From assembly GCA_021205095.1 (NCBI GenBank), contig JAJPYE010000065.1, positions 1-64,000 of the forward strand: a DNA stretch of 64,000 nt, read 5' to 3'. A program made the translations under genes and the position numbers. The notes under the pieces were generated by a model. That model was given only the letters and a program-made list of their open reading frames with translations. It was not told where the DNA came from and ran no database searches. This DNA is from Oscillospiraceae bacterium (GTDB lineage: Bacteria; Bacillota; Clostridia; Oscillospirales; Oscillospiraceae). Positions 26,248 to 62,285 of the stretch are shown one piece after another (the first letter of the stretch is position 1; each line of letters begins with the position of its first letter).

Positions 26248-26353
26248 TGCCTCCCGCATACAATGGGCTGTAATGCTAATCTTCCATTAACAGGTTCAAT
26301 TTTACAAATTAAACCTTTTTAACGAGAGCTAGTATAACCATTCGCGGGAGGCA
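26248..26353 (+). promoter_or_regulatory. Structured leader with ribosome binding site in the closing stem (DUF3343 gene)
   Basis: TGCCTCCCGC (26248-26257) is the exact complement of GCGGGAGGCA (26344-26353), which contains the ribosome binding site of the next gene. AATGG (26262-26266) can pair with either CCATT at 26284-26288 or CCATT at 26338-26342, two exclusive folds. Inside is a hairpin (26292-26316: AGGTT, AATTT, TAC, AAATT, AACCT) followed by TTTTT, which can terminate ispF RNA. TATAAC (26333-26338) could be a -10 element. I recognise no known riboswitch class. Confidence 0.5.
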
Positions 26354-26358
26354 ATTTT

Positions 26359-26607
26359 ATGCAATATCTGCTCACTTTCAGAAGCCTGACCTACGCACAG
26401 CGCGCCGCACGGGTATTGGAAAGGGCGGGCGTTACTGGCACTGTGTCCCGTCTGCCCAAGGCTGTCAGCACCAGAGGCTGCGCCTATTGCGTGATCGTCT
26501 CGGCCCGAAGACGGGAACAGTCGGTCAATTTATTAACAGCGGCGGGACTCGCCCCGGAGCGGGTCATTGCCAGAGATGAAAACGGCGTTTTGGAGGTGGG
26601 GGAATGA
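26359..26607 (+). CDS. DUF3343 family putative sulfur/selenium carrier-like protein
   Basis: 82 residues. Small basic alpha/beta proteins of this type (PF11823) are common in Clostridia next to NifS-like enzymes. The TRGCAYC stretch contains two cysteines three residues apart; a conserved Cys is the presumed carrier site in the family. The start codon of the downstream desulfurase overlaps its stop (ATGA), so the two are made together. Function is inferred from context. Confidence 0.7.
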   Translation: MQYLLTFRSLTYAQRAARVLERAGVTGTVSRLPKAVSTRGCAYCVIVSARRREQSVNLLTAAGLAPERVIARDENGVLEVGE

Positions 26608-27725
26608 TTTATCTTGACTGCGCGGCCACAAGCCTGCAAAAGCCCGCCGCCGTGCGCTATGCCATGTCGGAAGCTGTGGCGACCATGTCGAGTCCCGGTC
26701 GGGGCGGATACGAAAGCGCTATGGCCGCCGCCGGTACAGTGCTGGACTGCCGGACGGCCCTGGCGGATATGTTCTGCGTCTCCGCCCCGGAGCGGGTGAT
26801 ATTTACAGGAAGCGCCACCCATGGGCTGAACATTGCCATCAATAGCCTTGTAAATCCGGGAGACAGGGTGGTGATTTCAGGCTATGAGCATAACGCTGTC
26901 TGGCGGTCTCTATACGGCAGGGGAGCGGATGTTCAGGTGGCGACATCGCCCCTATTTCAGCCGGAGGCAGCGGTGGAAGCCTTTCGGCGGCTCCTGCCGG
27001 GGGCCAGGGCGGCGGTGTGCTGCCAGGTGTCCAATGTATTCGGCTATATCCTGCCGATAGGGGAAATTGCCCTGCTGTGCCGCCGGGCGGGAGTACCGCT
27101 GATTATTGACGCCGCCCAGGCCGCCGGGAGCGTGGGGCTGGATTTTGACGGTCTGGGCTGCGCCTATGCCGCCATGCCGGGCCATAAGGGACTGCTGGGG
27201 CCGCAGGGGACAGGTGTTCTTCTCTGCGGAGAAGAGCGGCCAGCGCCGCTGCTGTATGGCGGCACAGGCTCTGTCAGCGAGAGCGCCGAAATGCCGGATT
27301 TTTTGCCGGATCGCCTGGAGCCGGGTACCCACAACGTCCCCGGCATTGCAGGACTGCTTGCCGGTGTGGAATGGCTGAGCCGCAAAACAACGGCGGCGGT
27401 GCTGGCCCAGGAGCGGGAGCTTGCGGCAGCCTTTTGCGAGGCACTTGCCGGGGCCGACAGGATCCGGCTGTTCCGAGCCGCTGATTCCGCCTGTCAGGCG
27501 GGAGTGGTATCCCTGCAAGTCAGAGGCGCGGACTGTGAGGAGATTGCCGTCCGGCTGGCGGAACGGGGGATTGCCGTCCGGGCCGGGCTTCACTGTGCCC
27601 CGCTGGCCCATCAAACGGCGGGAACCCTTCGGGCCGGAACGGTGCGCTTTAGCTTCTCCCCCTTCAACACCCGCTCAGAAGTGCGGCAGGCGGCGGAGGC
27701 GATCCTGGTTCTGGCAAAATCGTGA
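26604..27725 (+). CDS. Cysteine desulfurase family aminotransferase class V
   Basis: 373 residues. The PLP lysine is in AMPGHKGLLGPQG and the catalytic cysteine in GLHCAPLAH near the C-terminus, which together define the NifS/SufS-like subgroup rather than other class V aminotransferases. It would take sulfur or selenium from cysteine or selenocysteine onto its own Cys and pass it to an acceptor, perhaps the DUF3343 protein translated just before it. No iron-sulfur scaffold gene is adjacent, which argues for a specialised delivery role. Confidence 0.85.
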   Translation: MIYLDCAATSLQKPAAVRYAMSEAVATMSSPGRGGYESAMAAAGTVLDCRTALADMFCVSAPERVIFTGSATHGLNIAINSLVNPGDRVVISGYEHNAVWRSLYGRGADVQVATSPLFQPEAAVEAFRRLLPGARAAVCCQVSNVFGYILPIGEIALLCRRAGVPLIIDAAQAAGSVGLDFDGLGCAYAAMPGHKGLLGPQGTGVLLCGEERPAPLLYGGTGSVSESAEMPDFLPDRLEPGTHNVPGIAGLLAGVEWLSRKTTAAVLAQERELAAAFCEALAGADRIRLFRAADSACQAGVVSLQVRGADCEEIAVRLAERGIAVRAGLHCAPLAHQTAGTLRAGTVRFSFSPFNTRSEVRQAAEAILVLAKS

Positions 27726-27735
27726 GTCGCGCTCA

Positions 27736-27764: not shown

Positions 27765-27777
27765 AAAAATACAAGCA

Positions 27778-27872
27778 ATAGGGGTGCTGGGATAACGGCC
27801 CGGCTGAGATGGCGTTACCGATACGCTGAACCCTGGAACCTGATCCGGGTAATGCCGGCGTAGGAAAGCCAC
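27778..27872 (+). ncRNA. TPP riboswitch (THI element)
   Basis: The conserved core is readable: GGGGTGCT, GGCTGAGAT, ACCCTGGAACCTGATCCGG, GTAATGCCGGCG and TAGGAAAG, in the right order and spacing. It binds thiamine pyrophosphate. It is followed by a small GCAA-loop hairpin (27870-27885) and an intrinsic terminator, so TPP should switch thiT off by premature termination. Confidence 0.95.
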
Positions 27873-27889
27873 GGCGCAAGCCGTGTATG

Positions 27890-27938: not shown

Positions 27939-27958
27939 AATTTGAAAGGAGAAGTCCC

Positions 27959-28549: not shown

Positions 28550-28568
28550 AACAGAAGAATATATACAG

Positions 28569-37437: not shown

Positions 37438-37446
37438 AATAAAATC

Positions 37447-37476
37447 GAATCAGGACAAACAGAGATAGCATAGTCT
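37447..37476 (+). promoter_or_regulatory. Possible SigE-type promoter of sigK
   Basis: GAATCAG (37447-37453), 15 bases, CATAGTCT (37469-37476) is a loose match to the SigE consensus (GAATATT / CATACAAT). The -10 lies inside the 5' arm of the start-codon hairpin. Confidence 0.35.
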
Positions 37477-46921: not shown

Positions 46922-46939
46922 AAAGGGGGGAGGAACGCT

Positions 46940-47977: not shown

Positions 47978-48051
47978 GACCATATGTCTCCTTTCTTGAA
48001 ATTCTAAGGATATTTTTTTGGCAATTTTGTGTGTTTTTTGAGAAAAAAGAC

Positions 48052-48079
48052 TTGACTTCCTCGCGCGTTGTTATATAAT
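48052..48079 (+). promoter_or_regulatory. Promoter of the SigH-like gene
   Basis: TTGACT (48052-48057), 16-base spacer, TATAAT (48074-48079). RNA would begin near 48086, leaving a leader of only about 18 bases with no Shine-Dalgarno sequence. Confidence 0.6.
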
Positions 48080-48103
48080 TATAGGCATAATGACATAATA
48101 GTG

Positions 48104-48709: not shown

Positions 48710-48762
48710 TCGCATATAATACTTGCCCAATTTGGGAAAATTTTCTAAAGAGAGGACCAAAA

Positions 48763-49044: not shown

Positions 49045-49058
49045 GTTTGTCCTGAAAA

Positions 49059-49087
49059 GGGGCTGCGTGAAGCGCAGTCCCTTTTTT
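49059..49087 (+). terminator. Rho-independent terminator after the zinc-ribbon gene
   Basis: GGGGCTGCG (49059-49067) pairs with CGCAGTCCC (49073-49081), including one GU pair, and is followed by TTTTTT. Confidence 0.88.
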
Positions 49088-49240
49088 AGTGTCTGTTTAC
49101 CTTTCCAAACATGCGGCAAAACGCCCTCGCTGGGTTTGATGCAGCGTTGAAAATAAATTTTGAAGCCTGGATAAAATATCGGCCTGGCCGGCAGCGGGCT
49201 GGATTTTTTTCAGTTAAACCGTATTTGGATGAATTTTGTG

Positions 49241-49269
49241 TTGAAATCTTGAATAGGAATGGGTATAAT
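49241..49269 (+). promoter_or_regulatory. Promoter of the DUF1858 gene
   Basis: TTGAAA (49241-49246), 17-base spacer, perfect TATAAT (49264-49269). Confidence 0.7.
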
Positions 49270-49304
49270 AGACTCAATCACTATGAAATTGGAGGGTCTC
49301 TATT

Positions 49305-49511
49305 ATGTATGAGGTCACAAAAGATACTATTGTCTACGATGTAATGCTTAACGCCCCCGCAACGCAGCCTTTGTTTGAGCGCATTGGGATGCACTGCCTG
49401 GGCTGTGCTTATGCCACAGGTGAGAGCATTGAACAGGCTTGCCTTGTCCATGGCGTAGATGTAGACGGATTTGTCAACGAGGTCAACGACTTTATCGCCG
49501 CCCATGCCTGA
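49305..49511 (+). CDS. DUF1858 domain protein (hybrid-cluster-associated redox disulfide type)
   Basis: 68 residues. ITKDTIVYDVM-type start (here VTKDTIVYDVMLNAP) and MHCLGCAYATGESIEQAC match the small DUF1858 family, related to the N-terminal domain of the di-iron repair protein ScdA. The CxxC in HCLGC is probably redox active. TTGGAGGG precedes the ATG. It is a single-gene unit between a strong promoter and a terminator. Confidence 0.85.
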   Translation: MYEVTKDTIVYDVMLNAPATQPLFERIGMHCLGCAYATGESIEQACLVHGVDVDGFVNEVNDFIAAHA

Positions 49512-49517
49512 TGGATG

Positions 49518-49541
49518 CGGCGGACGTATCCCGCCGTTTTT
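49518..49541 (+). terminator. Terminator of the DUF1858 gene, abutting the next start codon
   Basis: CGGCGG (49518-49523), 7-base loop, CCGCCG (49531-49536), then TTTTT ending directly at the ATG at 49542. Confidence 0.65.
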
Positions 49542-50975: not shown

Positions 50976-51019
50976 GAACCTGTGAATACAGGTTCTAAAC
51001 GTTTGCGGGCGAAACCCTG

Positions 51020-51070
51020 TCATAAAAGCTCCCTCCACGGCGTATGATGAACCAAACACGCCATGGAGGG
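51020..51070 (+). promoter_or_regulatory. Candidate SigE promoter and start-site hairpin of spoIVA
   Basis: TCATAAA (51020-51026), 14 bases, CGTATGAT (51041-51048) is a moderate SigE match. CCCTCCACGGCGT (51031-51043) and ACGCCATGGAGGG (51058-51070) pair in 12 of 13 positions. The 3' arm holds the GGAGGG ribosome binding site; the 5' arm lies upstream of the expected RNA start near 51056. Confidence 0.5.
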
Positions 51071-51077
51071 ATTATTT

Positions 51078-52550
51078 GTGGACAGAATCTATGAGGATAT
51101 TGCCCGCAGGACGGACGGCGACATATATCTCGGTGTTGTTGGGCCTGTGCGGACGGGGAAATCGACCTTTATCAAGCGCTTTATGGAAACACAGGTCATC
51201 CCCAATATTGAAAACGTATACCGCAAGGAGAGAGCGCGGGATGAGCTGCCACAATCCGGCTCTGGCCGCACCATTATGACGGCGGAACCGAAATTTGTGC
51301 CGGAGGAGGCCGTTGACATCTCTCTTGGATCGGAAACCTCCGCCTCCGTGCGGCTTATTGACTGTGTAGGCTACATGGTACCTGGGGCAGAGGGGTTGTA
51401 TGAGGACGGCGCCGAGCGAATGGTGACGACCCCGTGGTACGACCACGAGATACCCATGACCCAAGCGGCGGAGGAGGGAACTCACAAGGTCATCGCAGAA
51501 CACTCAACCATTGGCCTTGTTATCACCACCGACGGCAGCTTTGGGGATATTCCCAGAGAAAATTATGCCGCGGCAGAGGAACGAGTCATTCAGGAGCTGC
51601 AAAGCATTGGCAAGCCCTTTGCCGTGATTTTAAACTCTGCCGTTCCATCGGCTGAGAATGTGACCGTCCTGGCGGCGGAGCTAAGCCAAAAATACGGCGT
51701 CCCCTGTATGGCTCTGAACTGCCAGGAGCTGACGGATGCTGAAATACACACGATTATGAAAACAGTGCTGTTTCAATTTCCTTTAAACGAACTTTCCGTC
51801 TGGCTGCCCGCTTGGGCAGAGGCTCTGCCGGAGGACAGCGAGCTGAAACAGTCCCTTTACGAATTATTTTTGGATGCGGGGACAAAAATCAGCGTCCTAC
51901 AGGACGCCTACACCTGTATGGATAGCATAGGCCAAAGCGATCTTGTCAGCAAGGCGCGCATATCTGAGGTGCAAGCTGATGTAGGAATGGCCAGCGCCGT
52001 AGTGGAATTGAAAAGCGCTCTCTATTACCAAACTGTAAGCGAGCAGTCTGGTTATGAAATACGGGACGATGGGGATTTAATGGAGCTTTTGCGGTCGCTG
52101 AAAAGCCTGAAGCAGGAATACGATCATGTACACGATGCTCTGACGCAGGCGCGGGAGACCGGCTATGGCGTCATTATGCCAGGCCCGGAGGACATGATAC
52201 TGGAGGAACCGAAAATTATCAGCCGAGGTGGAAAATACAGCGTTCGCCTTAAGGCCAGCGCCCCTGCCATCCATCTTTTTCAAACGCAGGTGGAAACGGA
52301 GGTGTCCCCGGCTGTCGGCGGAGAAAAGGCCAGCGAGCAGATCGTCAGCTTCCTGCTCCAGGGCTTTGACGGAGATATGAACCGCATCTGGGAATCTAAT
52401 ATCTTCGGCAAGTCCCTATACGACATTGCGGAGGATGGTTTGACCACCAAGCTCCATCGTATGCCCAACAACATCCAAAATCGTCTGCGCACCACTATAC
52501 AGCGGCTGGTAAACGATGGAGGCTACAGCCTCATCTGCATTATCATATAG
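51078..52550 (+). CDS. spoIVA: Stage IV sporulation protein A
   Basis: 490 residues, close to the Bacillus protein (492). The GTG start has GGAGGG seven bases upstream and gives the expected N-terminus ahead of GGDIYLGVV-type sequence. Walker A is VGPVRTGKST. The N-terminal ATPase domain, middle domain and conserved C-terminus (RLRTTIQRLVNDGG) are complete. SpoIVA polymerises with ATP into the base layer of the spore coat around the forespore. An upstream ATG (51063) lies inside the ribosome binding site region and is unlikely. Confidence 0.95.
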   Translation: MDRIYEDIARRTDGDIYLGVVGPVRTGKSTFIKRFMETQVIPNIENVYRKERARDELPQSGSGRTIMTAEPKFVPEEAVDISLGSETSASVRLIDCVGYMVPGAEGLYEDGAERMVTTPWYDHEIPMTQAAEEGTHKVIAEHSTIGLVITTDGSFGDIPRENYAAAEERVIQELQSIGKPFAVILNSAVPSAENVTVLAAELSQKYGVPCMALNCQELTDAEIHTIMKTVLFQFPLNELSVWLPAWAEALPEDSELKQSLYELFLDAGTKISVLQDAYTCMDSIGQSDLVSKARISEVQADVGMASAVVELKSALYYQTVSEQSGYEIRDDGDLMELLRSLKSLKQEYDHVHDALTQARETGYGVIMPGPEDMILEEPKIISRGGKYSVRLKASAPAIHLFQTQVETEVSPAVGGEKASEQIVSFLLQGFDGDMNRIWESNIFGKSLYDIAEDGLTTKLHRMPNNIQNRLRTTIQRLVNDGGYSLICIII

Positions 52551-52568
52551 AGTGGACAGTGTCGATTC

Positions 52569-52604
52569 CGGCTGTGTCAGAACCATTCAGGTTCGGCACA
52601 GCCG
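52569..52604 (+). terminator. Hairpin after spoIVA
   Basis: CGGCTGTG (52569-52576) pairs with CACAGCCG (52597-52604), and GAACC with GGTTC inside. No T-tract follows, so termination may be partial. Confidence 0.55.
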
Positions 52605-52633
52605 CTGGCCGTTTAGTTATCTCATAAAAATAG

Positions 52634-52663
52634 TTGCGTCACAGAGGGATCAGGAGGTATAAT
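52634..52663 (+). promoter_or_regulatory. Promoter of the aminotransferase gene
   Basis: TTGCGT (52634-52639), 18-base spacer, perfect TATAAT (52658-52663). Confidence 0.5.
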
Positions 52664-52728
52664 GAATACAGGAAAAACTAGGTGAGCTTCTAACTGCCCG
52701 ACGATGCACTACAAAGGAGATACAAGAA

Positions 52729-53916
52729 ATGAGACCTTTATCCAAAATTGCCACATCCCTTAAGCCCTCGGCCACGATGGCTGTCAATGCCACCGTAAAG
52801 AAAATGCGCGCCGCCGGGGAGGAGGTATTCAGCTTCGGCGGCGGGGAGCCTGACTGGCCCACGCCGGAAAACATATGCCATGCTGGTATACAGGCAATTC
52901 AGGAAGGATTCACAAAATATACGCCCGCCTCAGGAACAGCCGAGCTGCGCTCCGCCATTGCCGAAAGGCTGAGAGAGGATTACGGTCTCGACTATGAAAG
53001 CGGGCAAATCGTTGTAACCAGCGGTGGAAAGCACGCCATTTATGTTGCGCTTTGCTGTCTTCTTGACCAAGGGGACGAGGTCATACTGCCTGCACCCTAC
53101 TGGGTTTCCTATCACGAGGCCATTCGCATGGCAGGGGGGACGCCAGTGGTTGTTTATGCATCGGAGGAGCAGGGCTTTAAGCTGACGGCCAGCCAGCTTG
53201 AGGCTGCTGTTACCCCCAGGACAAAGCTGTTTCTTTTGAATAACCCAGGAAATCCAACCGGCGCTGTCTATACAAGAGAGGAGCTGGCGGCGCTGGCAGC
53301 GGTATGCAAAAAATTCGATTTGTATGTGCTGTCTGATGAAATGTACGGAAAGCTGGTGTACGATGATGCGGAGCTTGTCAGCTTCCCGTCCTTGAGCCAG
53401 GATGCCTGTCAGCGTACCGTGCTGATAAACGGCGTGTCTAAGGCTTATGCCATGACCGGCTGGCGCATAGGCTACGCGGCGGCTCCAAAGCCCATTGCGG
53501 CGGCTATGGACGGGTATTTGTCCCAATCCACCGGCGCGCCTCCTTCCATCAGCCAGGCAGCGGCGCTGGAGGCCTTTTCCGGGCCGCAGGACGCTGTTGA
53601 ACGTATGCGCCAGGGCTATGATCAGCGGCGAAAATATCTTGTGGAGCGGCTAAACGGCATGGAGGGCGTATCCTGCGCGATTCCCAAGGGAGCGTTTTAT
53701 CTGCTGATTGACGTGTGGCCCCAGTTTGGCCGAACACTAGCGGGACGAAAAATTGAGAACGATACTGACTTCACGCAGGCACTGCTGGACGCAGAACACG
53801 TTGCCGTCACACCGGGCATCGCCTTCGACGCGCCGGGCTATGTGCGCTGGTGCTACGCCTCGTCCATGGAGGAGATTGTCGAGGGTCTGAATCGACTGGA
53901 ACGGTTCATCAGATAA
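52729..53916 (+). CDS. Class I/II aminotransferase, aspartate aminotransferase type
   Basis: 395 residues. The N-terminus SKIATSLKPSATMAVNATVK, GEPDWPTP, LNNPGNPTGAVY and the PLP lysine motif VSKAYAMTGWRIGY are those of the subgroup Ib aspartate/prephenate aminotransferases. AAAGGAG precedes the ATG. It interconverts aspartate and oxaloacetate, or related acids, using 2-oxoglutarate. No pathway neighbours are present. Confidence 0.9.
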   Translation: MRPLSKIATSLKPSATMAVNATVKKMRAAGEEVFSFGGGEPDWPTPENICHAGIQAIQEGFTKYTPASGTAELRSAIAERLREDYGLDYESGQIVVTSGGKHAIYVALCCLLDQGDEVILPAPYWVSYHEAIRMAGGTPVVVYASEEQGFKLTASQLEAAVTPRTKLFLLNNPGNPTGAVYTREELAALAAVCKKFDLYVLSDEMYGKLVYDDAELVSFPSLSQDACQRTVLINGVSKAYAMTGWRIGYAAAPKPIAAAMDGYLSQSTGAPPSISQAAALEAFSGPQDAVERMRQGYDQRRKYLVERLNGMEGVSCAIPKGAFYLLIDVWPQFGRTLAGRKIENDTDFTQALLDAEHVAVTPGIAFDAPGYVRWCYASSMEEIVEGLNRLERFIR

Positions 53917-53919
53917 CCT

Positions 53920-53948
53920 GAATACATTCGGATTTCATCTCATATAAG
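53920..53948 (+). promoter_or_regulatory. SigE-type promoter of cwlD
   Basis: GAATACA (53920-53926), 14-base spacer, CATATAAG (53941-53948), a fair match to SigE (GAATATT / CATACAAT). cwlD is SigE-controlled in Bacillus. Confidence 0.5.
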
Positions 53949-53978
53949 TTATTAAGCAAGCAATGAGGTGGAGTGCGG

Positions 53979-54680
53979 ATGTTTGATAAAATGAACTGGT
54001 GGTTTCCCTTGGCTTTGATCGTTTTGCTGGCCGTCGCCGTCCTGGTTAAGCCTTCCGAGATTGCAGCAGCGGCAGCGACGGCCCCAACTCCTGTTCTGGT
54101 AATCGACGCGGGACATGGGGGCGCAGACGGAGGAGCTGTGGCGACAGATGGAACGCTGGAAAGCGACCTTAATCTGGACATTGCTTTACGCCTGGAGGCG
54201 TTGGCTGCCTTTTGGGGTGTGGATACGGTGATGACCCGCGACAGCGCGGAAATAGATTATCCGGCGGAAGCCGACACCCTGGCCGCCATGAAGCGGGCCG
54301 ACCAATACGCCCGTGCCGCACTGGTCAATTCCACCGCCGGAGCTGTGCTTATAAGTATACACCAAAACAATTATCCAGCCGCCGCCCCTTGGGGCATCCA
54401 GGTCTTCTATGGCGGCGTCGCCGGAAGCGACACCCTGGCCGCTGTCTTGCAGGAAAACCTGACCGGGCAGCTATGCAGCAATACCCGGCGACTTGCCGAA
54501 CCTATCGACAGCAGCATCTATCTGATGAAAAAAGCAAGCTGCACAGCAGTTCTTGTGGAGTGCGGCTTTCTCTCAAACCCGGAGGATTTGAGCAAGCTCA
54601 GGACAGAGGAATACCGCTTAGAGCTTGCAACAGTTATCCTGGCATCCTATCTGCAATACATACAAGGAATAACGACATGA
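53979..54680 (+). CDS. cwlD: Germination-specific N-acetylmuramoyl-L-alanine amidase CwlD
   Basis: 233 residues. A short N-terminal membrane anchor or signal (about 8-25), then an amidase_3 domain with zinc ligands in DAGHGGADGG, SIHQN and catalytic Glu in LVECGF. CwlD removes peptide side chains to make cortex muramic lactam. The ATG at 53979 is at a normal distance from GAGGTGG; a GTG six bases earlier is too close. It overlaps radA by four bases. Confidence 0.9.
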   Translation: MFDKMNWWFPLALIVLLAVAVLVKPSEIAAAAATAPTPVLVIDAGHGGADGGAVATDGTLESDLNLDIALRLEALAAFWGVDTVMTRDSAEIDYPAEADTLAAMKRADQYARAALVNSTAGAVLISIHQNNYPAAAPWGIQVFYGGVAGSDTLAAVLQENLTGQLCSNTRRLAEPIDSSIYLMKKASCTAVLVECGFLSNPEDLSKLRTEEYRLELATVILASYLQYIQGITT

Positions 54681-56026
54681 AAGAGAAAACAGTTTTTTTC
54701 TGCTCCGCCTGCGGCCATGAGACCCCCCGCTGGCTGGGCCAGTGTCCCGCCTGCGGGGCATGGAACACCATGACAGAAGCCCCCGCCGCGCCCAAGGCGG
54801 CGGCAAAGACCCGTCCCGTCCGCCGATCAATGCCAAAGCGCCTTTCTGAGCTGGACATCCGGGACGATCCCCGCTTTTCCACCGGCATACGGGAACTTGA
54901 CCGAGTGCTGGGCGGTGGCGCTGTACGGGGTTCAATCGTCCTGTTTGGCGGCGCGCCGGGTATCGGAAAATCCACGCTGCTGCTCCAGGCCTGCGGCACC
55001 ATCGCCCAGCAGGAGAAGATTTTATATGTCACCGGCGAAGAAAGCGAGCGGCAGATTAAAATGCGGGCTGAGCGCCTGGGCGTAGGCCATGACAGCATTT
55101 ATATCCTGGCGGGAACAGATATTAACGACATCATCGCAGCTATCGAAGAAATTTCCCCGGAGCTTGTGATTGTGGACTCCATCCAGACCATATACGATCC
55201 GGCGCTGAACACCGCCCCCGGCAGCGTGGGCCAGGTAAAGCAGTGCGCCATGGAGATCATGCAGCTTGCCAAAGCCTCCGGCTTTACCGCTTTTGTGGTG
55301 GGCCATGTGAATAAAGAGGGGGCCATCGCGGGGCCGAAGGTGCTGGAGCATATGGTGGACTGTGTACTGTATTTTGAGGGGGACGGCAGCCTGAGCTATC
55401 GCATCCTGCGGGCAGATAAAAACCGCTTTGGCTCTACCAATGAGATCGGCGTTTTCGAAATGCGCCGGGAAGGTCTGCGGGAGGTGCCGGACCCCTCGGA
55501 GGTCATGCTGGCCGGACGGCCCACAGGCGTACCCGGCACCTGCGTTGCCTGCGTTATGGAGGGCAGCCGCCCGATTTTGGCGGAGGTGCAGGCCCTGGTC
55601 ACTCCCACCAGCTTTTCCGTTGCCAGGCGAACCTCCAATGGATTTGATTATAACCGGCTCTATCTTCTTCTGGCCGTGCTGGAAAAGCGGGGCGGTATGC
55701 GGGTCAACGCCTGCGACGCCTACATGAATGTGGTCGGCGGCCTGACACTGGACGAGCCAGCCGCCGACCTGGCCGCCTGTCTTGCCATTGCCTCTAGCTT
55801 TCGGGATATGCCCGTGCCGGACAAGCTGGCCGCCGTAGGGGAGGTGGGCCTGACGGGGGAGATCCGCAGCGTGCAGGCTCTGGATCAGCGCCTGTCTGAA
55901 ATCGCACGGCTGGGCTTTACCCAATGCGTCATTCCGTCCCGTATTCGGGGGGAGCTAAAAAAGCCGGAGGGCATGGAGCTTATTCGGGTCAAGACCCTGC
56001 GGGAAGCGGTGGAGAAGGTTCTGTGA
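54677..56026 (+). CDS. radA: DNA repair protein RadA
   Basis: 449 residues. N-terminal zinc finger CSACGHETPRWLGQCPACG, Walker A GGAPGIGKSTLL, the RadA-specific KNRFGS motif and a C-terminal Lon-like domain with MNVVGGLTLDEPAADLA. It promotes branch migration in recombination. It is translationally coupled to cwlD and to the next gene. Confidence 0.96.
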   Translation: MKEKTVFFCSACGHETPRWLGQCPACGAWNTMTEAPAAPKAAAKTRPVRRSMPKRLSELDIRDDPRFSTGIRELDRVLGGGAVRGSIVLFGGAPGIGKSTLLLQACGTIAQQEKILYVTGEESERQIKMRAERLGVGHDSIYILAGTDINDIIAAIEEISPELVIVDSIQTIYDPALNTAPGSVGQVKQCAMEIMQLAKASGFTAFVVGHVNKEGAIAGPKVLEHMVDCVLYFEGDGSLSYRILRADKNRFGSTNEIGVFEMRREGLREVPDPSEVMLAGRPTGVPGTCVACVMEGSRPILAEVQALVTPTSFSVARRTSNGFDYNRLYLLLAVLEKRGGMRVNACDAYMNVVGGLTLDEPAADLAACLAIASSFRDMPVPDKLAAVGEVGLTGEIRSVQALDQRLSEIARLGFTQCVIPSRIRGELKKPEGMELIRVKTLREAVEKVL

Positions 56027-56718
56027 CGCTTCTGATAGGCACACGATACCGGGACAGACTGGCTAAACCCCTGGAATATCTGGGGATTCAGGTCTGTTGG
56101 ATTCCTGACGATTCGATGCTGGATAGCCGTTTAGCCGGACACACCGATTTACGAATTTTTGCCGCAAAGAAACAGGCGGTTGTCGGGTTGGGAGCATACC
56201 CCTATATTGTCAATATATTAACTAATATGGGGTATTCCGTCAGAGCTGTCATTCCGCAGGGGGCGACTTATCCGGCGGACGCCGGGCTGTGTATTTGCGA
56301 CACTGGCAGCGTTGTGTTCTATAATCCCAAAACGGCAGCGCCGCAAGCGTTGGCGCTGACTGATAGTCACAAGGCAGCCGTAGCCCAGGGCTATACAAGA
56401 TGCGCTGTATGCGTTGTGACAGAACGATCTGTTATCACCGCTGATCATGGCATTGTCCAAGCCGTTTCTGATCTTCATTTAGATATGGATGCGCTGGAAA
56501 TCACACCGGGTTATATAAAACTGGATGGCTTCAATTATGGATTTATCGGTGGTGCATCGTTTAAATCGGACACAAATACCATCGTATTCACTGGCACACT
56601 GAACGGACACCCGGACAAAACAAAAATCCTTTCATTTCTGGCAAAACACAGCGTCAAGCCGGTCTTTTTAACCGAAGAGCCTATTTTTGACATTGGCGGC
56701 GCCGTAACGCTGAATTAG
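56023..56718 (+). CDS. Conserved protein of unknown function, DUF6873/GME-fold type
   Basis: 231 residues with a GTG start inside the radA stop and GGAGAAGG upstream. I tentatively place it in the DUF6873 family, predicted to have the fold of guanidine-modifying enzymes. Conserved-looking spots are CICDTGSVVFYN, ITADHGIVQ, PGYIKLDGFNYGFIGGAS and TGTLNGHPD. No signal peptide or helix. Its base composition is lower in GC than radA's. It recurs near radA in Clostridia as I recall, but no function is known. Confidence 0.65.
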   Translation: MTLLIGTRYRDRLAKPLEYLGIQVCWIPDDSMLDSRLAGHTDLRIFAAKKQAVVGLGAYPYIVNILTNMGYSVRAVIPQGATYPADAGLCICDTGSVVFYNPKTAAPQALALTDSHKAAVAQGYTRCAVCVVTERSVITADHGIVQAVSDLHLDMDALEITPGYIKLDGFNYGFIGGASFKSDTNTIVFTGTLNGHPDKTKILSFLAKHSVKPVFLTEEPIFDIGGAVTLN

Positions 56719-56783
56719 GTATTTTCTCCTCCCCTAAATTCGGCATAATATTAATTATGCCGAATTTTTAGTGAATTTGCCTA

Positions 56784-56835
56784 TGGACAATCCAAGCCTC
56801 CCTCTGCTATCATTTAAGCATCGGGAGGCTTTTTT
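56784..56835 (+). promoter_or_regulatory. Promoter nested in a terminator-like hairpin before the recombinase gene
   Basis: TGGACA (56784-56789), 18 bases, TATCAT (56808-56813). AAGCCTCCC (56794-56802) pairs with GGGAGGCTT (56823-56831), followed by Ts ending at the ATG (56836). The 3' arm is the ribosome binding site, and the -10 is in the 20-base loop, so RNA beginning near 56820 lacks the 5' arm. Confidence 0.55.
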
Positions 56836-57813
56836 ATGACGAACTACAAAGACGACTCATCCCAGCCTATGCGAGAGTTTCTGGTGTACCACGACACTAT
56901 CAAGGGCCAATCTGGCGCAACGGTGGATTCCTATTATTTAGATTTGAGAACCTTCACGCGATGGCTGTATATCAGCCGGGGCCTGGTTCCCAGGGACACG
57001 CCCATGGAGGAAATCGACATTACCGATGCTGGATTGGAGCTTTACGGATCCGTCACGCTGGCCGAAGTCTACGATTTTCTGGCATACCTATCCCGCGACC
57101 GGGAACTGAACGCCGCCTCGCGGGCCAGAATGATTACCACACTCAAGGGTTTCTATAAATATTTTACTGTTAAAACTAAGGCGCTTTCTACAAATCCCGT
57201 TGAAACGCTGGATGCTCCAAAGCTGCAAAAAACGCTCCCCCGTTATTTGACATTAGAGGAAAGCCAGCGGCTTCTTTCCGCCGTAGATGGGAAAAACAAG
57301 GAACGGGATTACTGTATTCTGTGTCTGTTTTTGAATTGCGGTTTGCGTATATCCGAAATGCGGGCATTGGATCTGGCCGACATCCGAGAAGACTGCCTGC
57401 TGATACACGGCAAAGGCAGCAAGGAACGCGTGGTATATTTGAATGACGCCACAACTCAGGCTATAGATAGCTGGTTGGCCGTGCGGAAAAATATCGCCGC
57501 ATTGGATGACGCCGTGTTCCTATCCAACCGCCGCAGGCGTATGAGCGTGGACGCCATTCAAATCATGGTTCACAATACACTTCTGAAGGCCGGCTTGGAC
57601 GCAACGCAATACTCCCCTCATAAGCTCCGTCACACCGCCGCCACCCTGATGCTGCAAAACGGCGTGGATGTCCGTACCCTCCAGGAGGTTCTGGGCCACG
57701 AAAATCTCAATACTACCCAGATATATACCCACATTGCAAACAAAGAGCTTCAAAATGCTGCCGCCGCAAATCCTCTTGCGGAGTTCAAGCCAAGAGAAAA
57801 AACGGACGATTAA
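56836..57813 (+). CDS. XerC/XerD-type tyrosine recombinase
   Basis: 325 residues. SAM-like N-terminal domain (about 10-110), catalytic domain with Arg in CGLRISEMRALD, HKLRHTAATLM (His-x-x-Arg), LGHENLNTTQIYTH (His and the nucleophile Tyr). It resembles housekeeping XerC/D, which resolve chromosome dimers, rather than phage integrases. No att repeats or mobile genes are nearby. Whether it is the chromosomal XerC or XerD cannot be told alone. Confidence 0.85.
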   Translation: MTNYKDDSSQPMREFLVYHDTIKGQSGATVDSYYLDLRTFTRWLYISRGLVPRDTPMEEIDITDAGLELYGSVTLAEVYDFLAYLSRDRELNAASRARMITTLKGFYKYFTVKTKALSTNPVETLDAPKLQKTLPRYLTLEESQRLLSAVDGKNKERDYCILCLFLNCGLRISEMRALDLADIREDCLLIHGKGSKERVVYLNDATTQAIDSWLAVRKNIAALDDAVFLSNRRRRMSVDAIQIMVHNTLLKAGLDATQYSPHKLRHTAATLMLQNGVDVRTLQEVLGHENLNTTQIYTHIANKELQNAAAANPLAEFKPREKTDD

Positions 57814-57832
57814 CGGATAAAAACACATAATA

Positions 57833-57861
57833 TTTTGCCGTACCGACTTGGTACGGCAAAA
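57833..57861. terminator. Bidirectional terminator between recombinase and symporter genes
   Basis: TTTTGCCGTACC (57833-57844) and GGTACGGCAAAA (57850-57861) form a perfect 12-pair stem with a five-base loop and T-rich flanks on both strands. Confidence 0.8.
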
Positions 57862-57878
57862 TTGTTAAATAATCATCA

Positions 57879-59351
57879 TCACCGTATCAAGCGTTGCTCC
57901 GGCTTTATCAGCCGTACACAGACAGGCATAGACATGGCGGCAGTCAAGACGGCGGCGTAGGTCTCGGAAAACCAGGGCGCAATGGGATAGCTGCCGGTGG
58001 CAAGCTCCGCGGCGGTCCACAGGACGGCCACGGCGGCGGTCAGGAGCATACTGACCACAGCGGCCCGCTGATGGGCCTTTTTCCAGTATATCCCATAGAG
58101 GATAACGATGAATATGGCCCCCCGGAGGGCATAGGCGCCATATACCATATCCAGTATCTGCCCCGCGTCCACCAGCAAAATGGCGCCCACAGCGCAGATA
58201 AGTCCGGCGACGGCCACAGTGGTTCGATTTATCCGCAGCAGGGTCTCTTCCGATTTCACTCGGAGGGAGCATATGTCTTGGCTGAACATGGTTCCCACCG
58301 CCAGGAAAATAGGCGACGCAGTGGAAAAAATCGCCGCCAGGATAGCCGCAAGCACCAGGCCCCCAGCTATCGGCGGCAGGTTCATCATCAGGGCGGATAG
58401 CGCCAGCTTGCCGTCTGTTACAACATTCCCTGTGGTGTCCAGAAGACTGCCGTTCATGCTCATAATCCGTGCAATCATGCCCAGCACTGCCGTAATAATG
58501 CCAAAGGGCGCTACCACCAGCGCCGTCCACATACAGGCTTTTTTGGCCGTGGCCTCATCCTTCGCCGCCAGCACCGGCTGTATGCCCGCCTGGGCAGTAC
58601 AGGCCCCCAGCATGGAAGCAATGATCCAGGACAGTACCTTGGGCCAGCCAATGGAAAAGGCTCCGGCGTAATTGTTCCCCGTCTCCTCGTACAGGGCGCT
58701 TAACCCTTCCTGGAAGGCGCTGCCGCCGCCAAGACTGGATATGCCCAGAATGGCTGCAAGAATTACTCCAAAATACATGACGGACAGGTGCAGCATATTT
58801 GTTGCTGACACCACCTGCATACCGCCCAGCATGGTATAGCATATGATAACGGCGGCAAATATAACCACCGACCAGACGAATGGCAGCCCCAGCAGGGACT
58901 GCCCCAGCTTGCCGACTGCCACCATTTGGGACAGACCCACTCCCAGCATTACCAGGCACAGCAGAATACTGGATACAACGCGGGCCTTTACCCCGTAAAA
59001 CCGCTCCACAATGCCGGGAACCGTTACCTTCTCCAAGCTGCGGTAAAGACGCGCGAAACACAGCGCCAGGAAAAGCACCCCCAATGCGTTCGCCAGGGTA
59101 TACCACATCCCCGAAAGGCCATATTTAAAGCCGTATTCCGCCACGCCGCTGGTGGCTATGCCGCCCAGCCATTCCCCGGCGGAAGCACACACGATGGCTG
59201 GAATCCCAAGCTCCGCCCCTCGAAAAGCGGCATTGGTTCCGGCTTTGCGCTGGGCGCGGCATATAACCAAGCCTATCTCTTCCGTTGCGGCTATATAGGC
59301 AGCCACGATCCAAACTTGCAGGCTCAAAGCCCGTTCATCTCGCTTTCTCAT
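57879..59351 (-). CDS. Sodium:solute symporter (SSS family)
   Basis: 490 residues with about 13 membrane helices. GEWLGGIATSGVAEYGFKYG and SVMYFGVILAAILG-type segments fit the SSS family (PutP/PanF/SglT fold). The first helix is unusual: it carries an acidic pair (ATEEIGL) where most relatives are hydrophobic. Substrate unknown; the adjacent gene set gives no clue. Start at ATG 59351 is preferred over GTG 59360, but neither has a good ribosome binding site. Its promoter carries a perfect inverted repeat over the -10 element. Confidence 0.85.
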   Translation of the reverse strand: MRKRDERALSLQVWIVAAYIAATEEIGLVICRAQRKAGTNAAFRGAELGIPAIVCASAGEWLGGIATSGVAEYGFKYGLSGMWYTLANALGVLFLALCFARLYRSLEKVTVPGIVERFYGVKARVVSSILLCLVMLGVGLSQMVAVGKLGQSLLGLPFVWSVVIFAAVIICYTMLGGMQVVSATNMLHLSVMYFGVILAAILGISSLGGGSAFQEGLSALYEETGNNYAGAFSIGWPKVLSWIIASMLGACTAQAGIQPVLAAKDEATAKKACMWTALVVAPFGIITAVLGMIARIMSMNGSLLDTTGNVVTDGKLALSALMMNLPPIAGGLVLAAILAAIFSTASPIFLAVGTMFSQDICSLRVKSEETLLRINRTTVAVAGLICAVGAILLVDAGQILDMVYGAYALRGAIFIVILYGIYWKKAHQRAAVVSMLLTAAVAVLWTAAELATGSYPIAPWFSETYAAVLTAAMSMPVCVRLIKPEQRLIR

Positions 59352-59374
59352 AATCTTCACTTAACTAATTAACA

Positions 59375-59408
59375 TTGGTATTATACCAAGGTTTTTCGTA
59401 TGCGTCAA
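59375..59408 (-). promoter_or_regulatory. Symporter promoter with an operator-like palindrome over the -10
   Basis: On the minus strand TTGACG (59403-59408), 17 bases, TATAAT (59380-59385). The -10 is inside the perfect 7-1-7 inverted repeat TTGGTATTATACCAA (59375-59389), the shape of a GntR-type repressor site. Confidence 0.65.
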
Positions 59409-59437
59409 CACATGGCCTACTCTGCAAGCAGAAAAGG

Positions 59438-59466
59438 TTGCCCCTGGCCCAAAATGGTAGTATACT
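59438..59466 (+). promoter_or_regulatory. Promoter of the ApgM-ispE operon
   Basis: TTGCCC (59438-59443), 17-base spacer, TATACT (59461-59466). RNA would start about 55 bases before the ATG. Confidence 0.5.
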
Positions 59467-59526
59467 ATAGCTGTACGTTTGTATGAAATGAAGCGGAAAA
59501 ATGAAATTTGACGGGAGTTCAACAGT

Positions 59527-60759
59527 ATGAAGTACTTATTGGTTATCGGCGACGGCATGGCGGATAATCCCGTGCCGGAGTTGGGAAATAAAACGCCGCT
59601 GGAAGTGGCGAACAAGCCTGTGATAGACGATTTGTCCCGCCGGGGCGTTTTGGGCAGCGTTGTCAACTGTCCCAAGCAGTTTGAGCCGGGCAGCGCTACG
59701 GCTATCATGTCCATTTTTGGGGCCTCTCCCCTGCGGTATTACCATGGCCGGGGGCCGTTGGAGGCGGCTGCCCAGGATGTGAAGCTGGCCGATGGGGATA
59801 TGGCTTGCCGCTGCAATATGATTACCTTGGAGGATGCAGACGTTCCCTACGAGCAGCGGCGTATTCTGTCCCACAGCGCCGGATCAATCGAGGGCGATGT
59901 TTCCGATCAGTTGATCACAGAGCTTTGGGCCAGTCCTGAATTCTCTGCCCTGGCGGAAAAATACCGCGTCAGCATCAATCCCGGCTCCTCCTTCCGACAC
60001 TTCGCCGTTATGAGCGGCGCGGATATTACAGGTATGAAGCTGATCCCGCCTCATGACCATCTGGGCGAGGTAATTGGGCCGCTGGCCCCTTCCGGCTGCG
60101 AAGCGGCAAAGGCGCTGGAGGAACTTCAGGAGGCGGCCTTCCGCTTCCTTGGCCATCACCCGCTGAACGAAGCGCGCCGCGCCGCGGGAAAAATGCCCGC
60201 CAACGCCATATGGTTCTGGGCAGAGGGTACCGCCGCCGTGCTGCCCGACTTTCAGAAGAAGTATGGCCACACGGGGGAGGTTGTGTCCGCCGTTCCGCTG
60301 GTGCAGGGCATTGCAAAGCTTTCCGGCCTGTCAGCCCCTGTCGTCCCTGGCGTCACCGGAGAGATTGATACCAACTGGGAGGGAAAATGCGAAAAGACCA
60401 TCGAGATCCTCTCCCGCTGTGATTTTGCCGCCCTGCATATTGAGGCCCCGGACGAGTGTACCCACAACGGGGACACGCCGGGCAAGCTGCAAAGCATTGA
60501 GTGGCTGGACAGCCGGGAGGTCTCCCCTATTCTGAATTGGCTGCAAAATTGCGGCGAGGATTATCGCATCCTTATACTTTCGGATCACAAGACGCTCACA
60601 TCTAACCGGGCGCATGACGGCGACCCCGTCCCCTTTTTGATATACGACAGCCGGGAGCCGAAATGCTCCGGTCTGTCCTATACGGAGGTGAATGGACTGA
60701 AAACCGGCATTAACCTGCCGGATGGCACGGTACTGCTGAATATGCTGTTTGAGAAATGA
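59527..60759 (+). CDS. Cofactor-independent phosphoglycerate mutase, ApgM type (or proposed homoserine kinase)
   Basis: 410 residues of the alkaline-phosphatase superfamily. LLVIGDGMADNPVPELG, the PGSATAIMSIFG nucleophile region and the ending SDHKTLTSNRAHDGDPVPF with metal ligands match archaeal-type ApgM. A subset of these proteins has been proposed to be a homoserine kinase in bacteria lacking ThrB, so glycolytic activity is not certain. GGGAG precedes the ATG. The stop overlaps the ispE start. Confidence 0.8.
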   Translation: MKYLLVIGDGMADNPVPELGNKTPLEVANKPVIDDLSRRGVLGSVVNCPKQFEPGSATAIMSIFGASPLRYYHGRGPLEAAAQDVKLADGDMACRCNMITLEDADVPYEQRRILSHSAGSIEGDVSDQLITELWASPEFSALAEKYRVSINPGSSFRHFAVMSGADITGMKLIPPHDHLGEVIGPLAPSGCEAAKALEELQEAAFRFLGHHPLNEARRAAGKMPANAIWFWAEGTAAVLPDFQKKYGHTGEVVSAVPLVQGIAKLSGLSAPVVPGVTGEIDTNWEGKCEKTIEILSRCDFAALHIEAPDECTHNGDTPGKLQSIEWLDSREVSPILNWLQNCGEDYRILILSDHKTLTSNRAHDGDPVPFLIYDSREPKCSGLSYTEVNGLKTGINLPDGTVLLNMLFEK

Positions 60760-61616
60760 TTGTTCACGCCAATGGAAAATTGAATCTGTCCCTGGACGTT
60801 TTGGGACGCACAGACGGCGGCTATCACGATATGCGCATGGTGATGCAGTCTGTTTCCTTCGGGGACGATTTAGACATAAGGCTGACAAAGGACGGAACAT
60901 TTTTTATCGATCCCGGTCAGCGATACTTACCCCGCAATGAAAAAAATCTGGCGCTTCGGGCTGCCCGACTGTTCCTCGATGGAAGCGGCCTGGGGGCAAG
61001 CATACGGATAACCAAACGCCTGCCTGTATGCGCCGGATTGGGCGGCGGCTCTGCAGACGCCGCCGCCGTGTTGGTAGCTCTGAACGAGATGACCGGCGCA
61101 GGAAAAACCGAACAGGAGCTATGTGTGCTGGGGCTGCAGCTTGGCAGCGATGTCCCCTTCTGTATTCAGGGGGGAACCGCCCTAGCCGAGGGACGGGGCG
61201 AACGGCTGACCGCTCTGTCTTCCATGCCGGACTGTCCTATCGTTATATGTAAGCCGGCCTTTGCAATTTCCACTCCTGAGCTATTTGGACGCATTGATGC
61301 AAGACGCAGCCGCCTTCGTCCAGATACCAAGGGCATTTTGACCGCCCTGGAGGAACAGGACTTATACGGGGTAGCCCGCCGAATGTACAATGTTTTCGAG
61401 GATGTGCTGGATCGCCGTCAGAGCGCCGTTCCGGCCATAAAACGCCAGCTAATCGACCAGGGAGCGATTAATGCCGCCATGACCGGCACCGGCAGCGCTG
61501 TATTTGGTTTGTTCGAGGACGAAAAGGTCGCAAAAGCCGCTGTCGAAGCCCTTTCCCCCGCCAATCAATGCTGTGTTCTCACCCGCCCTGCGGATACAGG
61601 GTGCGTCCTTATATGA
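60756..61616 (+). CDS. ispE: 4-diphosphocytidyl-2-C-methyl-D-erythritol kinase
   Basis: 286 residues of the GHMP kinase family. ANGKLNLSLDVLGRTDGGYH, the ATP loop PVCAGLGGGSADAAAVL and LGSDVPFCIQGG are IspE marks. It phosphorylates the MEP-pathway intermediate between IspD and IspF, both encoded near 25 kb. The ATGA overlap with the upstream gene indicates coupling. Confidence 0.95.
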   Translation: MIVHANGKLNLSLDVLGRTDGGYHDMRMVMQSVSFGDDLDIRLTKDGTFFIDPGQRYLPRNEKNLALRAARLFLDGSGLGASIRITKRLPVCAGLGGGSADAAAVLVALNEMTGAGKTEQELCVLGLQLGSDVPFCIQGGTALAEGRGERLTALSSMPDCPIVICKPAFAISTPELFGRIDARRSRLRPDTKGILTALEEQDLYGVARRMYNVFEDVLDRRQSAVPAIKRQLIDQGAINAAMTGTGSAVFGLFEDEKVAKAAVEALSPANQCCVLTRPADTGCVLI

Positions 61617-61633
61617 AAATTTTTCCATTTTCT

Positions 61634-61682
61634 GTATAAAAAAAGCAACTCACCGCCGATAATAAAGGCGGTGAGTTTTTTT
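61634..61682 (+). promoter_or_regulatory. Candidate SigF promoter nested in a terminator hairpin before spoIIR
   Basis: GTATA (61634-61638), 16 bases, GCCGATAATA (61655-61664) matches the SigF consensus (GYATA / GGNRANAMTR) at 9 of 10 positions in the -10. ACTCACCGCC (61648-61657) pairs with GGCGGTGAGT (61667-61676), followed by Ts up to the ATG at 61683. GGTGAG in the 3' arm is the ribosome binding site. Confidence 0.6.
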
Positions 61683-62285
61683 ATGAAAAAGAATAAATTA
61701 AACTTTCATCTGCGCCCCTGGGAGATTGCACTGCTTTTGGCATTGGTTGTGACCTTCTGTGCAGGAATATGGGCGCAACGAACCCAGGACAGGCTCTCCG
61801 GGCAGCTCATTCGCCTGCATGTGATTGCAAACTCTGACAGCAGCGAGGATCAGGCAGAAAAGCTGCAATTACGGGACAAAGTTTTAGCCCTGCTCTCCCC
61901 CCTACTGGCCGACTGCGAAACGCAGGAGGAGGCCGCTGCCGTCATTTCTGAAAATATGGATGCCATAGAGGCCCTCGGAGACGTATCTGTCAGCCTGGAA
62001 ACGGAATATTACCCCACGCGAGAATATAACACCTTCTCCCTCCCCGCCGGAGAATACCTTTCCCTGCGAGTGGAAATTGGCCAGGGCCAGGGGCATAACT
62101 GGTGGTGTGTGGTGTTTCCGCCCCTTTGTACAGAGGCGCTGGCAGAGGACGTCGGGGATGCGGCGGACGCGTTCAGTCTTCTGTCAGTCGAGGACGAGAG
62201 TCTTATCACGCAGGACGGCGAGGGCTATATACTCCGCTTTCGTCTGGTGGAGCTATGGGGCGAGCTAAAGGAGGCACTGAACTAA
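61683..62285 (+). CDS. spoIIR: Stage II sporulation protein R
   Basis: 200 residues. A signal or anchor helix (about 11-32) is followed by the SpoIIR signature LIRLHVIANSDSSEDQAEKL and the NWWCVVFPPLC motif. SpoIIR is secreted from the forespore and triggers SpoIIGA to process pro-SigE in the mother cell. The GTG at 61671 lies inside the hairpin and has no ribosome binding site, so the ATG is preferred. The stop overlaps by four bases with the convergent next gene. Confidence 0.92.
   Translation: MKKNKLNFHLRPWEIALLLALVVTFCAGIWAQRTQDRLSGQLIRLHVIANSDSSEDQAEKLQLRDKVLALLSPLLADCETQEEAAAVISENMDAIEALGDVSVSLETEYYPTREYNTFSLPAGEYLSLRVEIGQGQGHNWWCVVFPPLCTEALAEDVGDAADAFSLLSVEDESLITQDGEGYILRFRLVELWGELKEALN

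Follow-up and report, generated by a model that had tools for sequence, protein, structure and literature searches.

In the parts of PMC3014915 and PMC2988022 that were consulted, the Shine-Dalgarno sequence is hidden in upstream-initiated RNA of the T4 genes e (lysozyme), soc, 49, I-TevI, I-TevII, I-TevIII and segB and of Aeh1 mobE. Gene e and I-TevI are documented there, the remaining genes being named as further cases: at these two a late promoter gives RNA without the 5' strand of the structure, and this RNA is translated. A comparable proposal exists for B. subtilis sigG (spoIIIG), where read-through RNA from PspoIIG was proposed to fold a translation-blocking hairpin of 20+ bp that RNA from PsigG cannot form (PMC5942855, in the section consulted, citing Masuda 1988 and Sun 1991). 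Here, we analyzed start-site hairpins in an Oscillospiraceae bacterium, in bases 1-64000 of one contig of its draft genome (2.34 Mb, 66 contigs); this stretch is called the window. The hairpins lie at spoIIR, spoIVA, a DUF3343 gene and a Xer-type recombinase gene (xer). They may act as locks that silence transcripts entering from the gene upstream and that are lost when transcription begins at the gene's own promoter. We put the probability of this reading at roughly three in four; promoters and starts are predicted, and read-through, termination, the block of translation and the benefit are what we infer.

A sequence-only reading of the window had placed inverted repeats at the starts of these four genes and of sigK. 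All five repeats are present and fold better than shuffled sequence. The fold z-scores against 200 shuffles were -7.93 for spoIIR, -6.05 for spoIVA, -5.07 for the recombinase, -4.43 for DUF3343 and -3.50 for sigK; one of the 200 shuffles folded as well as sigK, and none as well as any of the other four. In the predicted read-through folds the Shine-Dalgarno sequence is paired at spoIIR, spoIVA, DUF3343, xer and a ClpP-like protease gene outside the window, and weakly at sigK. At the same five genes, sigK apart, the predicted promoters would place the 5' arm outside the RNA made from the own promoter. We propose that each start site is a composite element of ~45 bp whose single hairpin would be shared by the promoter, the ribosome-binding site and, in some genes, a terminator. 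The 5' arm would lie within the gene's own promoter, in the spacer or on the first -10 bases, with the -10 element at the end of the arm or in the loop. Transcription would begin in the loop or in the 3' arm, which would itself be the Shine-Dalgarno sequence. RNA entering from the upstream gene would carry both arms, fold and hide the ribosome site, and where a U-run is present (most spoIIR and DUF3343 leaders, xer of the window and the ClpP-like gene of this genome) it might be terminated just 5' of the start codon. RNA from the own promoter would lack the 5' arm and be free for translation, and sporulation proteins would be off by default until their sigma factor appears. The coordinates are collected in Table 1.

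Table 1. Predicted start-site elements and genes in the window; types of sigma factor are our assumption.
Feature	Position	Strand	Basis
DUF3343 hairpin 5' arm CTGCCTCCCGC, abuts -10	26247-26257	+	fold; genus alignment A2
DUF3343 predicted -10 CATACAAT, presumed sigma-E/K type	26257-26264	+	sequence; nearly invariant in A2
DUF3343 hairpin 3' arm GCGGGAGGCA, includes Shine-Dalgarno	26344-26353	+	fold; A2
DUF3343 (Se_S_carrier) gene	26359-26607	+	PF11823 1.6e-14
sigK hairpin 5' arm GATAGCATAG, on candidate -10 CATAGTCT (37469-37476)	37464-37473	+	fold; weak in genus
sigK hairpin 3' arm CTATGCTATC, over ATG (37498); Shine-Dalgarno in loop	37496-37505	+	fold
spoIVA predicted -35 GTCATAA, presumed sigma-E type	51019-51025	+	sequence; kept in alignment A3 (24 leaders)
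spoIVA hairpin 5' arm TCCCTCCACGGCG, in promoter spacer	51030-51042	+	fold; 24/24 leaders at least 8 kcal/mol
spoIVA predicted -10 CGTATGAT	51041-51048	+	sequence; GGCGTATG invariant in A3
spoIVA hairpin 3' arm CGCCATGGAGGGA, includes Shine-Dalgarno GGAGGGA	51059-51071	+	fold, leaders
spoIVA gene, GTG start	51078-52550	+	TIGR02836 3.8e-187
xer predicted -35 TGGACA	56784-56789	+	promoter scan, 10/12 matches with TATCAT
xer hairpin 5' arm AAGCCTCCC, within 18-nt spacer	56794-56802	+	fold; genus leaders
xer predicted -10 TATCAT, in loop	56808-56813	+	promoter scan
xer hairpin 3' arm GGGAGGCTT, includes Shine-Dalgarno	56823-56831	+	fold; genus leaders
Xer-type tyrosine recombinase gene	56836-57813	+	PF00589 4.9e-44; best NCBIfam XerC, below cut-off
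spoIIR predicted -35 GTATA, presumed sigma-F/G type	61634-61638	+	sequence; genus alignment A1, GTWTA in the majority of rows
spoIIR hairpin 5' arm ACTCACCGCC, promoter spacer and first -10 bases	61648-61657	+	fold, covariation
spoIIR predicted -10 GCCGATAAT, 5' arm end and loop	61655-61663	+	sequence; predicted in 26/26 scored genus leaders, own finder
spoIIR hairpin 3' arm GGCGGTGAGT, the Shine-Dalgarno	61667-61676	+	fold, covariation
spoIIR U-run, seven T, terminator-like, between Shine-Dalgarno and ATG (61683)	61676-61682	+	
spoIIR gene	61683-62285	+	PF09551 2.8e-38; TIGR02837 2.3e-37, below its cut-off

Conservation was followed in 35 genomes of the genus, where protein searches found spoIIR homologues in 32 genomes, sigK homologues in 31, xer homologues in 33 and DUF3343 homologues in 34, and at most 30 leaders of each were read. 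For spoIVA, the 25 nearest named records (Oscillospiraceae metagenome bins, SpoIVA 75-94% identical) were used; 24 gave a leader, L014 being dropped at a contig end. A hairpin was counted as strong when opening the Shine-Dalgarno sequence cost at least 8 kcal/mol, and each leader was compared with 30 shuffles. Four of the 30 spoIIR leaders and one of the 30 xer leaders had no usable start or upstream sequence for scoring. Promoters were searched with our own motif finders, built for these sporulation-type motifs. The promoter types, sigma-F/G and sigma-E/K, were assigned by resemblance to consensus sequences: we take the -35 of spoIIR to be of sigma-F/G type by the sigma-F consensus, the -35 of spoIVA to be of sigma-E type and the DUF3343 -10 to be of sigma-E/K type.

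At spoIIR, 23 of the 26 scored leaders have a strong hairpin, and 23 beat all 30 shuffles. When the RNA was cut at the predicted start (directly before the Shine-Dalgarno sequence wherever that start fell inside it), the median opening cost in the genus dropped from 13.6 to 0.6 kcal/mol. Both sides of the stem have changed together. Paired cells in the alignment amount to 91.7%, compared to 80.1% in shuffles, the number of double-change cells is 28 (9.6 in shuffles) and the covariation score 0.329 (0.124 in shuffles); none of 500 shuffles reached any of these values. Four of the 30 rows (L141, L142, L163 and L164) were excluded from these pair counts. One pair appears as CG, UA, AU and GC in different species. 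Further support is provided by an arm-swap in silico, in which the own arms fitted better than swapped ones (p <= 5e-5).

The repeats are palindromic and overlap promoters, as operators for a repressor would, and the RNA pairing might then be incidental. We consider this very improbable. Compensatory and G-U changes occur in the stems, and the loops are of variable length. The stem letters are specific to each gene, the only common feature being complementarity to the gene's own Shine-Dalgarno sequence. By inspection, no operator half-site at a fixed spacing was common to the genes; neither the stem letters nor the loop lengths are the same from gene to gene or from species to species. A covariance model of the spoIIR hairpin matched spoIIR itself only in 78 sources (the window, 37 of 53 further stretches of the own genome and 40 stretches of two relatives; 1.55 Mb), and the hairpins of different genes therefore do not form a common sequence family. 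None of the candidate locks in the window, in L085 or in L132 matched Rfam at gathering scores.

The read-through lock is also consistent with the leaders of the other genes. At spoIVA, all 24 leaders have a strong hairpin and all 24 beat their shuffles; cutting at the predicted start lowered the median opening cost from 16.6 to 2.4 kcal/mol, and the arm-swap gave p = 0.023. The start of spoIVA is most likely the GTG at 51078, which matches homologues; an ATG within the stem is the less likely choice. At DUF3343, 26 of 30 leaders are strong and 22 of 30 beat all shuffles, and the median fell from 13.6 to 2.6 kcal/mol (arm-swap p <= 5e-5). The DUF3343 leader of the window itself scores only 3.9 kcal/mol in the 80-nt test because ~65 nt have entered its loop; a longer fold still closes the stem. 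At xer, 24 of 29 leaders are strong and the median fell from 10.4 to 3.1 kcal/mol, again with an arm-swap p <= 5e-5. The arms of xer shift register in the alignment (A4), and pair counts were for this reason not made. The pairing that the sequence-only reading expected to be conserved among relatives is found at spoIIR, spoIVA, DUF3343 and xer; at sigK it is weak.

A hairpin can also lie within a gene's own mRNA leader and act there as thermometer, riboswitch or damping hairpin, with the promoter further upstream. Ribosome-site hairpins of the own leader exist, such as that of B. subtilis sigG in the section of PMC5942855 consulted, and four spoIVA leaders (L031, L044, L058 and L076) fit this by eye, as the hairpin seems to lie 3' of the -10. 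For the genes described here we regard such an arrangement as improbable. Judged by the motifs, with finders built for them, transcription would begin within the hairpin in 23 of the 26 scored spoIIR leaders of the genus (predicted leader 11-14 nt; 26-28 nt in L141, L142 and L164) and in all 24 spoIVA leaders, and in both genes the -35 and -10 letters are among the best-kept columns. Such apparent own-leader hairpins of spoIVA belong to some Dysosmobacter/Oscillibacter-type and other genomes. In several of the spoIVA leaders L074-L080 a second hairpin (GGCAGGAG...CTCCTGCC) was seen by eye, which may compete with the ribosome-site pairing.

To place these hairpins among all genes, gene calling was carried out on the window and 53 stretches of the own genome (861 kb, ~37% of the genome, 780 genes). 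For 644 of the 780 genes the opening cost of the Shine-Dalgarno sequence was scored in the region -90 to +15, with 20 dinucleotide shuffles of the upstream part per gene as control. In the extreme tail, strong hairpins are more frequent than in shuffles: 10 genes at 10 kcal/mol or more (4.75 in shuffles, maximum 7 in 20 shuffles), 5 genes at 12 or more (0.9, maximum 3) and 4 genes at 14 or more (0.05, maximum 1). Among the five genes at 12 kcal/mol or more are spoIVA and xer; spoIIR ranks sixth (12.0, rounded). The tail excess was repeated in a sample from two further members of the genus (40 stretches, each of 20 kb, picked by contig number, 579 genes scored; contig C10 of G018, the carrier of xer, sigK and DUF3343, was left out), with 4 genes at 12 kcal/mol or more (0.75, maximum 3) and 7 at 10 or more (3.9, maximum 7).

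The tail of the own genome also holds the ClpP-like protease gene (L085:7345-7971), which follows the same plan as the genes of the window. GCATA comes first and is followed by 15 nt holding the arm CACCCAAAGCC, by the predicted -10 GGGGAAACT in the loop and by the arm GGCTTTGGGTG, which is the ribosome site; a T-run then leads to the ATG. The gene is found in 33 of the 35 genus genomes, and its leader was read in 22 of these. All 22 leaders are strong and 19 beat all 30 shuffles. A spoIIR-type promoter was predicted around the arm in 17 of 22, and cutting there left a median of 0.5 kcal/mol. Six pairs change on both sides, with 24 double-change cells compared to 6.4 in shuffles (0 of 500 shuffles; 2 of 22 rows, L466 and L491, excluded), so that compensatory change is present at two genes, spoIIR and this one. 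Its predicted promoter suggests that the ClpP-like gene may be a sporulation gene. Two further genes are possible locks, each with a sporulation-type promoter around the arm by eye: sleB in one relative (L436:1524-2192, minus strand; 12.8 kcal/mol) and an ssb-like gene (own genome, L132:18185-18790, minus strand, 9.4 kcal/mol; L472:2063-2665, 12.5 kcal/mol). Another strong hit of the own genome outside the window lies at L124 15184-15525.

At the level of the taxonomic family, matches to the spoIIR family model were found in 101 of 120 genomes. From 70 of the 101 (the 31 others include this genome and one genus member) 70 leaders were obtained as 30 loci and 40 fetched pieces, 60 of them with a usable start. 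Strong hairpins are present in 39 of the 60, and 38 beat all 30 shuffles. The figure of 39 is probably a lower bound, since at least two of the unlocked leaders (L285 and L320) look like wrong starts. The stems differ in their letters; for example, GGAGG or GAGGT replaces the CGGTG ribosome site in L290, L303 and L322, and the arm-swap on the 44 of 60 leaders preselected at 6 kcal/mol or more gave p <= 5e-5. Class-wide, 30 leaders from other families were sampled and 27 scored (3 dropped). Five have a strong hairpin with other letters, and all five beat 30 shuffles; L332, L346 and L350 share one other family, and in L343 the arm is flanked by a promoter of the form GTATA...GGTAATAAT.

Of the 8 nt that immediately precede the start, at least five are T in 23 of 30 spoIIR and 23 of 30 DUF3343 genus leaders, compared to 28 of 581 background genes. 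In the family, 34 of 39 locked spoIIR leaders carry such a run and 4 of 21 unlocked ones. As the U-run usually follows the spoIIR or DUF3343 stem, these hairpins resemble terminators in which the ribosome site forms the 3' arm, and may also terminate transcription. Such a run was counted in 12 of 24 spoIVA leaders, in 10 of 29 xer leaders and in none of the 30 sigK leaders; a strong U-run is not consistent at spoIVA and is missing from most xer leaders. In xer of the window a U-run follows the stem. Many spoIVA and xer hairpins, having no U-run, could only block translation. Plain intrinsic terminators of the upstream gene, tightly packed and selected for termination alone, would also give U-runs after the stem, as in most spoIIR and DUF3343 leaders, in xer of the window and in the own ClpP-like gene. 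Indeed, the unlocked family leaders L287, L291, L313 and L319 carry by eye an ordinary hairpin and T-run 5' of a separate ribosome site, which suggests that upstream insulation itself is wanted. That the overlap with promoter and Shine-Dalgarno sequence is incidental nevertheless seems unlikely to us. Pairing of the Shine-Dalgarno sequence is not needed for termination, yet it is kept in spoIVA and xer with their inconsistent U-runs, and the 5' arm holds its position inside the predicted promoter.

Several results weigh against the read-through lock or narrow it. Besides the patchy U-runs of spoIVA and xer and the four spoIVA hairpins that seem to lie in the own leader, this holds for sigK. 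The gene is a SigK-type sigma factor by domain and family searches, and most of its pairing joins GCATAG, the candidate -10, to CTATGC at the start. Of its genus leaders 23 of 30 are strong, yet only 7 of 30 beat all shuffles; the median after cutting at the predicted start is 4.8 kcal/mol and the arm-swap gave p = 1e-4. A lock at sigK is not supported because its shuffles are themselves high (mean 8.4; the test region runs through the start codon). At xer only 12 of 29 leaders beat all shuffles. The sequence-only reading had named compensatory change in homologous leaders as a check; it was found at spoIIR, whereas the spoIVA pairs (93.3% paired; 1 of 25 rows, L014, excluded) contain no double change, the Shine-Dalgarno side being fixed, and the double-change cells of DUF3343 were matched by 57 of 500 shuffles, with the pairing itself conserved (3 of 30 rows, L225, L235 and L248, excluded). 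The leader predicted for spoIIR in the genus is very short, with a median of 12 nt and a start at or directly beside the Shine-Dalgarno sequence. The arm-swap and shuffle tests leave the shared ancestry of the leaders in place.

On the same side stand the genome-wide counts. The own genome has no overall excess over shuffles (mean opening cost 3.13 compared to 3.29 in the 644 genes), and at 6 kcal/mol or more there are even fewer genes than in shuffles (64 and 71.5, respectively); at 8 or more the numbers are 24 and 18.75 (maximum 28). In the two further genomes, 46 genes compared to 62.6 reach 6 kcal/mol and 18 compared to 15.4 reach 8. The excess over shuffled sequence that the sequence-only reading predicted is therefore real in the extreme tail only, and a repeated design of the genome in the strict sense is rejected, as mean opening costs equal those of shuffles; the design is limited to a small number of genes. 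As a whole, that reading is partly supported. Two strong hits from this tail, both outside the window, were rejected as not conserved. One is an ATP-grasp gene (12 of 30 loci read; 2 of the 12 strong, namely the gene and a locus with 95% identity to it), the other a Phd/YefM antitoxin (12 of 30 loci read; 1 of the 12 strong, namely the gene). Outside the genus a strong spoIVA hairpin was found in 6 of 55 leaders; L073 and L062 show by eye the lock geometry with other letters. Class-wide, 22 of the 27 scored spoIIR leaders outside the family are without a strong hairpin. In the genus, sigG shows no strong lock: of its 18 loci 16 were scored, and a single leader reaches 8 kcal/mol. A terminator scan with loops of 3-8 nt listed no lock in the region 45000-64000. 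The direction of the upstream gene, looked at in 60 family genomes to separate locked from unlocked leaders, was unreadable because of shadow frames.

Within the window, the upstream neighbours are all on the same strand. The sporulation genes do stand behind housekeeping-type genes, as had been noted from the sequence: spoIIR behind a GHMP kinase, spoIVA behind TrmK/NIF3 and sigK behind an FGGY kinase. DUF3343 follows IspF (YgbB), xer follows a DUF6873 gene of unknown role, and the gene after DUF3343 is cysteine-desulfurase-like (PF00266, 6e-66). The ~65 nt in the loop of DUF3343 (26273-26339) are absent from the 29 relatives read, and 42 nt of them match L098 and L094 of the sampled own genome at 81-83%; the insert may be a small repeated element. 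A block like GTCGAATCAGGACAAAC stands just 5' of the sigK -10 (37445-37460 in the window) in most of the 30 leaders (L165-L194; by eye); it resembles the consensus of a SpoIIID site. The sole Rfam match in the window is a thiamine pyrophosphate (TPP) riboswitch (RF00059, 60.7 bits) at 27770-27881, 5' of a gene at 27959.

Upstream of xer, 70 bp 5' of the gene, a 28-bp inverted repeat (11+6+11; ATTCGGCATAA TATTAA TTATGCCGAAT) was found at 56738-56765, which we call dif-like by comparison with E. coli dif. In the 35 genus genomes it occurs, with at most two mismatches, once in 31 and twice in one, and is absent in three. Over the first 104 kb of the contig, the cumulative GC skew has its maximum at 56-58 kb, and xer is the only Xer-type gene found in the genome at E <= 1e-40. 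The repeat is a good candidate for the site where chromosome dimers would be resolved at the replication terminus, adjoining its recombinase as in the XerS/difSL system.

Sporulation genes that stand directly behind growth genes may be exposed to leak, and leaky SpoIIR or SpoIVA could trigger the wrong programme in the wrong cell. If the read-through lock holds, a compact genome would silence developmental genes without a repressor, as the sigma factor that makes the RNA would also pick the start that removes the lock. The arrangement would offer a possible reason for invariant spacer letters that promoter function alone would leave free, a searchable signature (an anti-Shine-Dalgarno sequence within the promoter spacer) and a simple part for leak-proof gene circuits. 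More widely, these start sites could form an undescribed composite class of ~45 bp, combining promoter, terminator of the upstream gene and ribosome-binding site. It would be a recurrent insulator of sporulation genes in the family, across sigma-F/G (spoIIR, the ClpP-like gene, perhaps sleB) and sigma-E/K (spoIVA, DUF3343, perhaps the ssb-like gene), and at spoIIR it would have evolved repeatedly within the class. We see the odds for this wider claim as evenly balanced.

In the open-access literature searched, in which few papers were examined in depth and subscription journals lay mostly outside, no report of such a hairpin at spoIIR, at spoIVA or at a group of sporulation genes was found, the sigG paper apart; the consulted parts of PMC7438776 and PMC9931155 do not address these hairpins. 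Intrinsic (Rho-independent) terminators share the GC-rich stem and U-run with most spoIIR and DUF3343 leaders. They differ in that here the 3' arm is the ribosome site of the next gene, whose predicted promoter lies in the loop or 5' arm. The hairpin of B. subtilis sigG is, as proposed here, one in read-through RNA of a sporulation gene, but of another gene. The T4-type locks hide the Shine-Dalgarno sequence in upstream-initiated RNA in the same way as proposed here. They belong to phage genes with phage late promoters, whereas the hairpins described here are found at bacterial sporulation-type promoters, at several genes of one genome and often with a U-run that gives the hairpin the look of a terminator. 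The principle is known singly from T4 lysozyme, I-TevI and B. subtilis sigG; its repeated and conserved use at sporulation genes appears, within the literature searched, to be the new part.

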